Positions 55,075 to 58,969 of a DNA stretch of 58,969 bases are shown here, piece after piece (positions within the stretch are counted from its first letter, which is position 1; every line of letters begins with the position of its first letter). Under the pieces are notes generated by a model that saw only the letters and a program-made list of their open reading frames with translations, searched no databases and had not been told where the DNA came from. Source of the DNA: Aneurinibacillus terranovensis DSM 18919 (GTDB taxonomy: Bacteria > Bacillota > Bacilli > Aneurinibacillales > Aneurinibacillaceae); NCBI RefSeq assembly GCF_000430625.1, contig NZ_AUMJ01000044.1:1-58969 (forward strand). Reading direction: 5' to 3'. The position numbers were made by a program, and so were the translations under genes.

Positions 55075-56373
55075 TTAACTTGAAACAGACAGGTGGGGAA
55101 ATAGAATAGAAGGGGCGCCGTACTGGCTAGGACCGGGCGGCGAGAATTTGAAATCGTCCGCGCTTTGTTCGATAGCCGCAAATAGATCAAAGAAGTTCCC
55201 GGCGATCGTAATATCTTTTACCGGGTGAATAATTTGCCCGTTTTCTATCCAGTGGCCCTGGCACGCAAGTGAGAAATCCCCGGAGACAATATTCGTCCCC
55301 GAATGCAACCCCTGGACATCCGTAACGTAAAGCCCGTTGTGCATCGTGGAAAATAATGATTCAAGCGGGACAACCCCGTTTGGTATCTGCATCCGGTGCG
55401 GCGCGATCTGCACGGTTCCTTTGTAGCTGCGGATTCCGTGGCCGGTCGGGGTCTGCTTCATGTCTACTGCTGATTGCAGGCTGTGCAGATAGCTTTCCAA
55501 GACACCGTCCCGAACCAGGTAGAGTTTCTCCGTATTGACCCCTTCATCGTCAAACGGCACTTGTTCATATCCTGTATCCGGATCGTCGAGCAGGGTAAGG
55601 GAGCCTAATAATTTTTCTCCCAACCTTCCTTCGAGCCTTGACGTTCCCTGCAGAATGCTGCGGGCGGAAAACACGCCGCTGTATGTCGATAGAAGAGAAC
55701 AAATAATTTTACGATCGAGAACGGCCGCGTAGCTGCCCGTTTTAATCGGCCGTCCGCCGAGCTTGCGGCGCGCTTTTCCGACCACTTCCTCGATTAATTC
55801 CCTCTTTGAAAACTGTCGGATATCACCAGTATAATATGCGCCGTCCGTTTCAACTTCAGCGCCGCGCTTTACTACAACGGAGAGATAAACCATGCTGTAA
55901 TTTGATTCGTGAGTTTTGTCTACTCCATACGTGTTGGCAATCCGGCGCACCGCGTGCCCGCTGCTTACAAGCGCATAGGAGACAGAGGAAACTTCTTCCG
56001 CCTGGCCCGCTTCCGCTTCTAGCTGCAGTGCAAGTTCAATTTGTTTGTCGTCGGGCAGTTCGGGTTTAATGTCACGCCAATGACCTTCCTGTTTTACCTG
56101 AAACAGCGGTTCTTTTTCGTCCATAAGTGAGGCATTCGCCTTGAGCATGTCAATCAGATTATCGAATTCCTCAGGTTTCACTCTCTCGGTATACGCGTAA
56201 CCGGTCCGTTCATTAAAAGTTCCCCGGATTCCGATGCCGCCGGTATTCGTCTTTTTATACGACTCAATTTTCCCTTCATACGCCTGTACGCTGAAGTTCT
56301 GTCCCTGGCTCGTAAGGATTTCCAAATCCTTAATATTCTTTTGTTTGGCAAGGGAAAATAACTGCTCGATCAT
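55075..56373 (-). CDS. tldE: TldE/PmbA-type metallopeptidase subunit
   Basis: The TldE (PmbA) homologue, 432 aa, forms with TldD a zinc protease that degrades unfolded peptides and matures some modified peptides. It lacks the HEXXXH metal motif, as expected for the non-catalytic partner, and has VPFDDEGVNTEKLYLVRDGVL and GDFSLACQGHWIENGQ. ATG 56373 follows GGAGGAAG. It overlaps tldD by four bases (ATGA), implying coupled 1:1 expression. Confidence 0.92.
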   Translation of the reverse strand: MIEQLFSLAKQKNIKDLEILTSQGQNFSVQAYEGKIESYKKTNTGGIGIRGTFNERTGYAYTERVKPEEFDNLIDMLKANASLMDEKEPLFQVKQEGHWRDIKPELPDDKQIELALQLEAEAGQAEEVSSVSYALVSSGHAVRRIANTYGVDKTHESNYSMVYLSVVVKRGAEVETDGAYYTGDIRQFSKRELIEEVVGKARRKLGGRPIKTGSYAAVLDRKIICSLLSTYSGVFSARSILQGTSRLEGRLGEKLLGSLTLLDDPDTGYEQVPFDDEGVNTEKLYLVRDGVLESYLHSLQSAVDMKQTPTGHGIRSYKGTVQIAPHRMQIPNGVVPLESLFSTMHNGLYVTDVQGLHSGTNIVSGDFSLACQGHWIENGQIIHPVKDITIAGNFFDLFAAIEQSADDFKFSPPGPSQYGAPSILFPHLSVSS

Positions 56374-57758
56374 GATTGGCTTCCTCCTACCGTCAGTTGG
56401 GATACACGCAGGGCCGGCTGGCCGACATTTACCGGTATGGAACCACTGATCGAGCCGCACATTCCCTGTCCGGGTTTAAAGTTATTTCCAACCATGTCGA
56501 CATCGTACATGGTCTGCCTGCCATTGCCGATTAACGTGGCCCCTTTTACCGGATACGTCAGCTTACCATTTTCAATCATATAGCCTTCAAGCACCGCGAA
56601 GTTAAAATCGCCCGTTGTCGTATTCACACTGCCGCCGCCCATCGATTTCGCGTAGAGGCCGTATTCGGTTCCCGCGATCATATCATCGAGTTTATCTGTG
56701 CCCGGCAAAATGTAGGTGTTCGTCATGCGCGAAGTCGGGGCGAACCGGTACGACTGCCGTCTGGCTGAGCCGGTCGGGGCCATACCCAACCTCCGTCCGC
56801 CGAGCTTGTCGATTAAATAGCCCTTTAAAATTCCTTTTTCTATAAGCGAATTGCGCTGGGTGTGTGTGCCTTCATCGTCAATATGAAGCGAGCCCCATTC
56901 ATTCGGAATCGTTCCATTATCTATTGCTGATATTTTTTCGCTTACGACCTGTTGGTTGAGCTTACCGGCATATGGGCCGTTTCCTTTGGCAACAGCGGTC
57001 GCTTCCATTCCGTGCCCGCATGCTTCATGGAAAATAACGCCGCCAAACCCGTTATCAATCACAACAGGCATTTTTCCGCCAGGACACGGTCTGGCTTCGA
57101 GCATGCGTACGGCGCTATCGGCCGCCGTCTCTGCGATATCGCGGAGATCGATCTCGGAGTAGAACTCAAACCCTTTCGATGCGCCCGGTGCCAGGTAACC
57201 CCGCTGCTTTTGCTCTTGGTCTGCGGCGATCACTTCGACAAACAGGCGGGTTCTTACCCGTTTGTCCTCGGCCCATAGTCCGTCAGAGTTGGCGATCAGC
57301 ACCCGCTGTGTTTCATCGAAATAGCTGGCTTTTACCTGGCTGACCGATTTATGGTAGTCGAAGGCATGCCTGGTGACCCGGGATAGCACATCCCTTTTTC
57401 GTTCAATGGACACCACCCGTGGATCAATGGTGGCGATATGGCGGGGCACGATCAATTCTTTCTTAAATGTGATGGTCCGGTTGACCGTCTGCCGGTTTTT
57501 AGCGGCCTGAGAGAGGAGGGCGGCAATCTCGATTAAATGATTTTCCTCTTCATTGTTCGTGTATGTATATAGATAATCCACGCCGTTAAAAATGCGAATC
57601 CCGATCCCGAAGTCCTGCCCTGAACGGGCCTTTTCGATTTTTTCTTTTACCATGGAAAGGTGTTGTTCGATTTTGTTTTCCACGTAAATTTCCGCGAAAT
57701 CTCCCCCGTGTGAGAGCGCGGCCTGCAGTACGCGTTCCACCAGTTTTTGCTGTAGCAT
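56370..57758 (-). CDS. tldD: TldD metallopeptidase subunit
   Basis: The catalytic TldD subunit, 462 aa, with the zinc motif HEACGH at residues 244-249 and further family blocks (FGGVIFHEACGHGMEATA, IDDEGTHTQRNSLIEKG, MGGGSVNTTTGDF). It heads a two-gene operon with tldE. No substrate peptide gene is visible next to it, so a general proteolytic role is as likely as peptide maturation. Confidence 0.94.
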   Translation of the reverse strand: MLQQKLVERVLQAALSHGGDFAEIYVENKIEQHLSMVKEKIEKARSGQDFGIGIRIFNGVDYLYTYTNNEEENHLIEIAALLSQAAKNRQTVNRTITFKKELIVPRHIATIDPRVVSIERKRDVLSRVTRHAFDYHKSVSQVKASYFDETQRVLIANSDGLWAEDKRVRTRLFVEVIAADQEQKQRGYLAPGASKGFEFYSEIDLRDIAETAADSAVRMLEARPCPGGKMPVVIDNGFGGVIFHEACGHGMEATAVAKGNGPYAGKLNQQVVSEKISAIDNGTIPNEWGSLHIDDEGTHTQRNSLIEKGILKGYLIDKLGGRRLGMAPTGSARRQSYRFAPTSRMTNTYILPGTDKLDDMIAGTEYGLYAKSMGGGSVNTTTGDFNFAVLEGYMIENGKLTYPVKGATLIGNGRQTMYDVDMVGNNFKPGQGMCGSISGSIPVNVGQPALRVSQLTVGGSQS

Positions 57759-57852: not shown

Positions 57853-58110
57853 ATGTATTATGTTTATATCATCCGCTGCAAAGATTCATCTTTATATACA
57901 GGATATGCGGCAAATGTCGAAGAGCGAATCAAAAAACATAATGAAGGAAAAGCAGCCCGTTATACTCGCGGCAGGGGGCCTGTCGAGCTTGTTTATGTTG
58001 AAGAGGTGCCGGACAAAAGGGATGCGATGCGCCGGGAATATGAAATCAAGCAGTTCAGTAAGGGGAAAAAAGAAATCCTTGTGCGCAATTGGAAAAATAA
58101 ATTTGTGTAA
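57853..58110 (+). CDS. GIY-YIG nuclease superfamily protein (UPF0213, YazA/YhbQ-like)
   Basis: An 85-aa single GIY-YIG domain. It begins MYYVYIIRC with YTGYAANVEERIKKHN, which carries the two Tyr elements and the conserved Arg, and has RGRGPVELVYVEE and a basic tail. These small proteins are predicted endonucleases of unknown physiological role. ATG 57853 gives the family start; the frame is open upstream to 57757 but without a ribosome binding site. Confidence 0.88.
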   Translation: MYYVYIIRCKDSSLYTGYAANVEERIKKHNEGKAARYTRGRGPVELVYVEEVPDKRDAMRREYEIKQFSKGKKEILVRNWKNKFV

Positions 58111-58152: not shown

Positions 58153-58395
58153 ATGGCAAAACGCAATAACAACTTCAATGCTAACGCAGATGCGCGCCAG
58201 CAAAACATGACTGCTCAAGCAGCGGGAACTACTGCAGGTACTGCAGCAGGAGCTAATGCAGCAGGCGTGAATGCGGCAGGATTTAACGATGTTGAGTTTG
58301 GCAGTGAAACGAACGCTCAGGCTGTTCGCCAGAAAAACCAGCAATCTCAAATGAAAGCTGCTAACAACGCGGCGCAGCAAAACGCTACGAAGTAA
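58153..58395 (+). CDS. Gamma-type small acid-soluble spore protein
   Basis: An 80-aa Asn/Gln/Ala-rich protein with EFGSETNAQAVRQKNQQS, the germination-protease cleavage region of gamma-type SASPs (SspE). These proteins serve as an amino-acid reserve in spores. ATG 58153 follows GGGAGGTGAT. A possible sigma-G site (TGTAAT, then CATTTTA at 58127) lies upstream but is weak. Only one repeat of the cleavage block is present, fewer than in B. subtilis SspE. Confidence 0.88.
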   Translation: MAKRNNNFNANADARQQNMTAQAAGTTAGTAAGANAAGVNAAGFNDVEFGSETNAQAVRQKNQQSQMKAANNAAQQNATK

Positions 58396-58411
58396 GTTAT
58401 CTCCCTCAAGC

Positions 58412-58438
58412 CCCCGGTGATATTCACCGGGGTTCTTC
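58412..58438 (+). terminator. Terminator after the SASP gene
   Basis: CCCCGGTGA, loop TAT, TCACCGGGG then TTCTTC (58412-58438). Confidence 0.9.
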
Positions 58439-58492
58439 ATTTTCATTGGGATTTTTCTCATCTAAAACCATTTTTATCTCTATAAAAAAGAG

Positions 58493-58521
58493 TTGCTTCT
58501 TTCTTGTACGTGTGATATATT
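58493..58521 (+). promoter_or_regulatory. Putative rRNA promoter ahead of 23S
   Basis: TTGCTT (58493-58498), a 17-bp spacer and TATATT (58516-58521). About 200 bp of leader follows, containing a GTACCTTGAAAACTGGATAC segment typical of the spacer just before 23S genes in Bacillales. Confidence 0.55.
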
Positions 58522-58724
58522 AATAAATGTCGCTACAAGATGCGGCAGCTTAATAAGTGAAACAAAACGAGGAAAACAAGGATAAAAAATTTCTTCACTT
58601 TTTCTTTGATGTACCTTGAAAACTGGATACAGAAAAAACAAAGCGCAATAGGAAAAATCCAAACTGCCTTTAGGTTTAATTTTGCTTGTATCGAACAAGA
58701 GCGGCAGGAGGAGCGAGAAGATCG

Positions 58725-58969
58725 GGTTAAGCTATAAAGGGCGCACGGTGGATGCCTAGGCACTAGGAGCCGATGAAGGACGCGACGAACGGCGATACGC
58801 TTCGGGGAGCTGTACGTAAGCTTGGATCCGGAGATGTCCGAATGGGGAAACCCCCTGCCCGTAATGGGGCAGGACTCCCATCTGAATTCATAGGATGGGC
58901 AGAGGCACACCAGGGGAACTGAAACATCTAAGTACCCTGAGGAAAAGAAAACAATAGTGATTCCCTCAG
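58725..58969 (+). rRNA. 23S ribosomal RNA, 5' end (runs off the window)
   Basis: The sequence from GGTTAAGCTATAAAGGGCGC through GCACGGTGGATGCC, AGCCGATGAAGGACG and CCAATGGGG-type helices is the conserved 5' end of bacterial 23S rRNA. Only the first ~245 nt are in the window. No 16S gene or tRNA is present upstream; the nearest gene is a SASP gene 330 bp away. Confidence 0.95.

Follow-up and report, generated by a model that had tools for sequence, protein, structure and literature searches.

A conserved extra 23S rRNA gene without 16S and 5S partners behind a SASP gene in Aneurinibacillus and related genera

The contig end and the leader of the 23S rRNA gene

The DNA analysed here (the window, 58,969 nt) is one whole contig, C27 of the 98 in a draft genome of 4.25 Mb from the Aneurinibacillus lineage (G000 below), and it ends within a 23S rRNA gene, of which positions 1-243 of the Rfam model are matched (Table 1). 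Since the window is the entire contig, the truncation of the gene is due to the assembly and not to the window. No 16S rRNA, 5S rRNA or tRNA gene was found within the whole window, and thus the 16S and 5S members of a normal rRNA operon are missing from the locus, as they are in the complete genome G001 described below. A sequence-only reading had placed a SASP gene with its own terminator about 330 bp ahead of a 23S rRNA gene that had no 16S rRNA gene upstream, and this holds: the gap is 329 bp, and the terminator lies within it. Rfam family searches of the same genome with RF02541 and RF00177 gave 0 matches, even though a 23S end is present in the window; such a search therefore overlooks partial genes, and rRNA ends were located by DNA and pattern searches in its place.

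Table 1. Features at the end of the window, in order of position
Feature	Coordinates	Strand	Remarks
TldD-family gene	56370-57758	opposite to 23S	
GIY-YIG domain gene	57853-58110	+	Pfam GIY-YIG, E 1.8e-22; conserved upstream neighbour, same place in relatives
Gamma-type SASP gene	58153-58395	+	Last protein gene ahead of 23S; Pfam SASP_gamma, E 3e-5, 24.9 bits, under the gathering score of 28.4; same place in relatives
Intrinsic terminator of the SASP gene	58412-58432	+	9-bp stem, then T-rich tail
Putative rrn-type promoter	58493-58533	+	TTGCTT-N17-TATATT (58493-58521) and GTCGC element (58529-58533); conserved in relatives' lone-23S leaders
boxA-like motif TGTACCTTGAAAAC	58610-58623	+	Also the start of the processing-stem 5' arm; conserved in leaders; same box ahead of the draft's 16S genes
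Predicted 5' arm of the pre-23S processing stem	58610-58669	+	Pairs with the 3' flanks at three 23S ends of this genome
Right half of a 16S-23S spacer	58617-58724	+	Runs into 23S; scores above shuffles against linked spacers of G001 and G010
23S rRNA gene, first 245 nt	58725-58969	+	RF02541, 212.3 bits, E 1e-65; truncated by the contig end

The promoter-like site that had been suspected in the gap was not listed by a generic promoter scan of the window, because its -35 hexamer fits the consensus at just 3 of 6 positions, and the support for it therefore rests on its conservation in relatives. All 13 lone-23S leaders that were examined (from nine genomes of the family, G012 and G014, and two from G030) have a TTGNNN-N17-TANNNT site, and the GTCGC element follows closely behind the -10 hexamer in 11 of them, being absent there from G001 and G004. 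Six copies of the signature TGATATATT-N4-8-GTCGC were found in the draft (control count 0), all of them at contig ends: C27, then C7 and C20, which enter 16S genes, and C16, C59 and C41, each ending in a 16S-type leader, with C41 breaking off ahead of the box. Judged by these sequence comparisons, the site is conserved and rRNA-specific in the draft, and would serve the lone 23S rRNA gene as its own promoter. The TGTACCTTGAAAAC box is one which we take to be boxA. The promoter and the box are kept across leaders, while the remainder of the leader is variable.

The resemblance of the leader to the end of a 16S-23S spacer, also claimed earlier, is upheld by alignment of the window's segment from the box to the 23S rRNA gene with the linked spacers of two relatives, with 28/30 and 37/41 identities; the scores of 45 and 47 exceed the respective shuffle maxima, which are 28 and 24. 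When the same right half was compared with a linked spacer of the same genome, 225 of 228 positions were identical in G010 and 141 of 156 in G001. The left half of the leader, in contrast, has no match at all in the spacer of G001 or G010 and matches the 16S leader weakly (scores of 32 for G001 and 28 for G010, where shuffles reach at most 27 in both); that of the window does not match a 16S leader above its shuffles. The leader may thus be a promoter-to-spacer fusion left after the loss of a 16S-5S segment.

RNase III-type enzymes cleave the stems formed by the flanks of pre-23S rRNA, and the leader has the potential to form such a stem. The 5' arm of the window, paired with the flanks behind three 23S 3' ends in the same genome (its own 3' flank is not on the contig), gave -54.8 to -58.5 kcal/mol with z scores of -9.7 to -12.2, each based, like those that follow, on 500 shuffles. 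The lone copy of G001, with both arms at hand, gave -58.0 kcal/mol (z -6.6), that of G008 with its partner contig -61.2 kcal/mol (z -8.2), and a linked copy of G001 -61.5 kcal/mol (z -10.2).

The locus in related genomes

A DNA search covered 41 genomes and fetched stretches, among them 11 genomes of the family, all of which have the TldD gene. The SASP gene followed by a 23S rRNA gene without 16S or 5S is found in five of the 11 (G000, G001, G003, G008 and G010, of which G010 has gaps within its 23S at this locus), and in four more the contig breaks off within the leader or beside the 23S. Of these, the contig of G004 ends in the spacer half ahead of the 23S rRNA gene, that of G006 just beyond the box, that of G009 inside the box and that of G002 after the promoter; another G002 contig, C60, has a 23S 3' flank and the same tRNAs at its end. 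The unit or its flanks are thus present in nine of the 11 genomes, spanning four genera. The remaining two, G005 and G007, are single-contig assemblies with no 23S rRNA gene and no N in the stretches concerned, so a lone 23S rRNA gene at this locus was rejected for both; there the promoter is followed directly by tRNA-Cys-Leu-Val. A methyltransferase-like gene, recognised by eye, accompanies the promoter in these two genomes (L099 and L158) at the place of the lone 23S.

The most informative relative is G001, Aneurinibacillus sp. Ricciae_BoGa-3, listed in the same genus as the genome of the window and available as a complete chromosome (NZ_CP116887.1). Its junction runs TldD, GIY-YIG, SASP, promoter and 23S, without 16S and without 5S, and no 16S rRNA gene was found in the 7.75 kb upstream of the lone 23S. 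The SASP gene of G001 was identified by eye, its Pfam match being under the gathering score, and is followed by an SspH gene. The lone 23S rRNA gene is complete (model positions 1-2925, 2950.5 bits) and is followed by tRNA-Asn-Met-Pro-His-Cys-Leu-Val. Contig C84 of the draft begins with the tRNA series Met-Pro-His-Cys-Leu-Val, which in G001 comes after the tRNA-Asn behind the lone 23S, and is therefore likely to be the continuation of C27; the draft itself leaves the 23S rRNA gene of the window unconnected to its 3' flank and tRNAs.

Lone 23S rRNA genes also occur outside the family. In two genera of the sister family (G012 and G014), the promoter, the box and a 23S rRNA gene without 16S adjoin an ilvD-like gene, recognised by eye from its translation (L249 on G012:C14 and L250 on G014:C65); the place is conserved between them and differs from the SASP locus. 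No 23S start was found in G013, and G011 offered only a 3-kb 23S contig. Among the 26 genomes outside the order, eight have a 23S start with sufficient upstream DNA for a judgement: in seven it is linked (G015, G017, G020, G025, G027, G032 and G034), and G030, of another family of the class, is the exception, having two contig ends with promoter, box and 23S without 16S (L253 on C2 and L254 on C7). As against these two in G030, a single 23S start, likewise at a contig end, was located in G003, G008, G012 and G014; G008 has 16S starts at seven places and a 23S start at one.

Linked operons and the integrity of the lone copy

The linked rRNA operons of the family have the order 16S-5S-23S, with the 5S rRNA gene within the 16S-23S spacer (noted at L147, L149, L142, L145, L100 and L225). 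A scan of five loci showed this order in all six of their operons, five belonging to G001 and one to G007, and it also holds for all 15 fully visible operons of G001, a set that overlaps with the former. G001 has at least 23 23S 3' ends, comprising 15 in linked operons, one whose 16S is masked in part (L144), the lone copy, a 298-nt fragment (L223) and a further five with masked upstream DNA (L216, L217, L219, L221 and L222). The 298-nt fragment (L223, 2188-2485) is a 23S 3' end ahead of a long tRNA cluster.

The lone 23S of G001 is intact and differs little from the linked copies. Among the 16 complete 23S copies of this genome it has two private columns, compared with 0-4 in the 15 linked ones, and it differs from the linked copies by 6-22 substitutions, linked pairs differing among themselves by 3-25. 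With neither truncation nor an excess of private changes, a 23S pseudogene in G001 was rejected; the judgement applies to the copy of G001, the window containing just 245 nt of the gene. In 5 of the 16 complete copies (L140, L141, L142, L146 and L215), the lone one included, there is an insert of 75 nt near position 1461.

In the draft, five contig ends enter 16S starts (C7, C20, C23, C30 and C49), 23S 3' ends lie at three contig ends (C46, C48 and C30), and exactly one contig end, that of C27, enters a 23S start, which implies that the collapsed linked operons leave only the lone 23S joined to unique DNA. The sequence-only reading had considered an unlinked 23S as one of two possibilities; it is supported by the complete 23S of G001 at the same junction, and by the junctions of G003, G008 and G010, with one refinement. 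Because the relative has many linked 16S-5S-23S operons and one lone 23S, and because five contig ends of the draft enter 16S genes, the 16S and 23S rRNA genes of the window's genome are not generally unlinked, and the lone 23S is a single extra unit.

Origin and significance of the lone 23S unit

The extra 23S rRNA gene is a genuine and conserved one, the structure of which is explained. We consider it, with a probability of roughly 0.85, to be a stand-alone 23S transcription unit with its own promoter and a processed precursor, which arose by the loss of 16S and 5S and has been kept intact by conversion. The rrn-type promoter behind the SASP terminator would drive a precursor comprising boxA, the 5' arm of the 23S stem, the 23S, the 3' arm and then the tRNA cluster, the last seen in relatives. 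Cleavage at the stem, as in normal operons, would release the 23S into the common pool, with 16S and 5S supplied by the linked 16S-5S-23S operons, so that extra 23S and tRNA would be the benefit. Most likely, a 16S-5S-23S-tRNA operon at this locus lost its 16S-5S part between the promoter and the spacer box, and gene conversion with linked copies would keep the lone 23S intact. The deletion falls short of proof because the left leader half matches 16S leaders so weakly and, in the window, not above its shuffles.

Insertion would account for the locus differently, and is possible if somewhat unlikely: the locus would once have held a promoter and a tRNA cluster, between which a 23S became inserted together with its spacer half, without any loss of 16S. 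Just such an arrangement, with the promoter next to tRNAs and no 23S, is what G005 and G007 have. These two complete genomes belong to genus g3, however, the other five members of which have the unit or its leader, which suggests loss, and tRNA-Asn clusters of a similar kind also stand behind linked 23S copies of G001, as a former full operon would predict. The lack of the unit in G005 and G007 would also suit a decaying remnant, i.e. a functionless lone 23S pseudogene that is intact solely through gene conversion, to which alone its few differences from the linked copies may be due. This is quite improbable, as the promoter and the box are conserved amid a variable leader, conversion with 23S copies leaves the conserved promoter unexplained, and the unit or its flanks persist in so many genomes of the family. 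An assembly artefact, with an rRNA repeat wrongly joined to the SASP region (the other possibility raised earlier) or a full operon at that place, might be suspected in a draft of 98 contigs from a contig ending inside a repeat, but is hardly credible and was rejected on synteny, since independent genomes, G001 (complete), G003, G008 and G010, have the same junction, and the contig ends 245 nt into the gene, similar to the draft's other rRNA contig ends (93-284 nt past the start of the 16S motif searched for).

A stand-alone 23S unit differs from the normal operon of the family (16S-5S-23S-tRNAs) in having no 16S and no 5S, and shares with it the promoter type, the box, the right spacer half, the 23S and the tRNA cluster behind it. 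Unlinked rRNA genes of bacteria and archaea are reportedly the subject of Brewer et al. 2020. According to the portions available of two papers (PMC7761764, PMC8997704), such genes are already known, and the likeness lies in a 23S transcribed separately from 16S, which is here deduced from sequence. The typical unlinked case, as described in the available part of PMC7761764, has few rRNA copies, often all unlinked, and Wolbachia and Helicobacter keep 23S and 5S together, whereas the lone 23S described here has no 5S and is a single unit in the company of many linked operons. Romboutsia ilealis, with missing or re-ordered rRNA genes at 5 of 15 loci, likewise has atypical rRNA loci in a genome with many operons, but the available text reports no cross-species conservation (PMC5598433), whereas the place of the lone 23S is kept across four genera. 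The accessible text of two genome notes on Aneurinibacillus migulanus gives operon counts of 11 and 20. No report of this lone 23S locus was found in open-licence PMC papers, and as far as literature searches show, an extra 23S of this kind, syntenic and homogenised alongside many linked operons, is a new variant.

Equal supply of 16S and 23S is the usual reason given for keeping the rRNA genes in one operon. An intact, conserved extra 23S amid linked operons offers a clean test of whether the 16S/23S balance depends on linkage, because it is a single removable gene whose transcripts can be distinguished by their unique leader. It is tempting, though doubtful, to regard the lone 23S with its tRNAs as a selected, separately controlled source of 23S through which these spore-formers could tune large-subunit rRNA independently of 16S, perhaps offsetting the 16S-5S-23S order, in which the long 23S is last, with similar units having arisen more than once at different loci (the SASP-tRNA locus in the family of the window, the one with the ilvD-like neighbour in the sister family and the two in G030).

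Lone 23S units are concealed at contig ends by short-read assemblies and will be overlooked by any method that relies on linkage to match 16S and 23S. Two minor observations concern other loci. A short contig of the draft, C79 (L151, 687-1911), which ends at a tRNA-Asn-Arg-Leu cluster, carries pieces of a group II intron. In G015 (L154, 5861-6231), two 23S 5' ends lie 370 bp apart with a gap of 100 N between them, which looks like a scaffolding fault.
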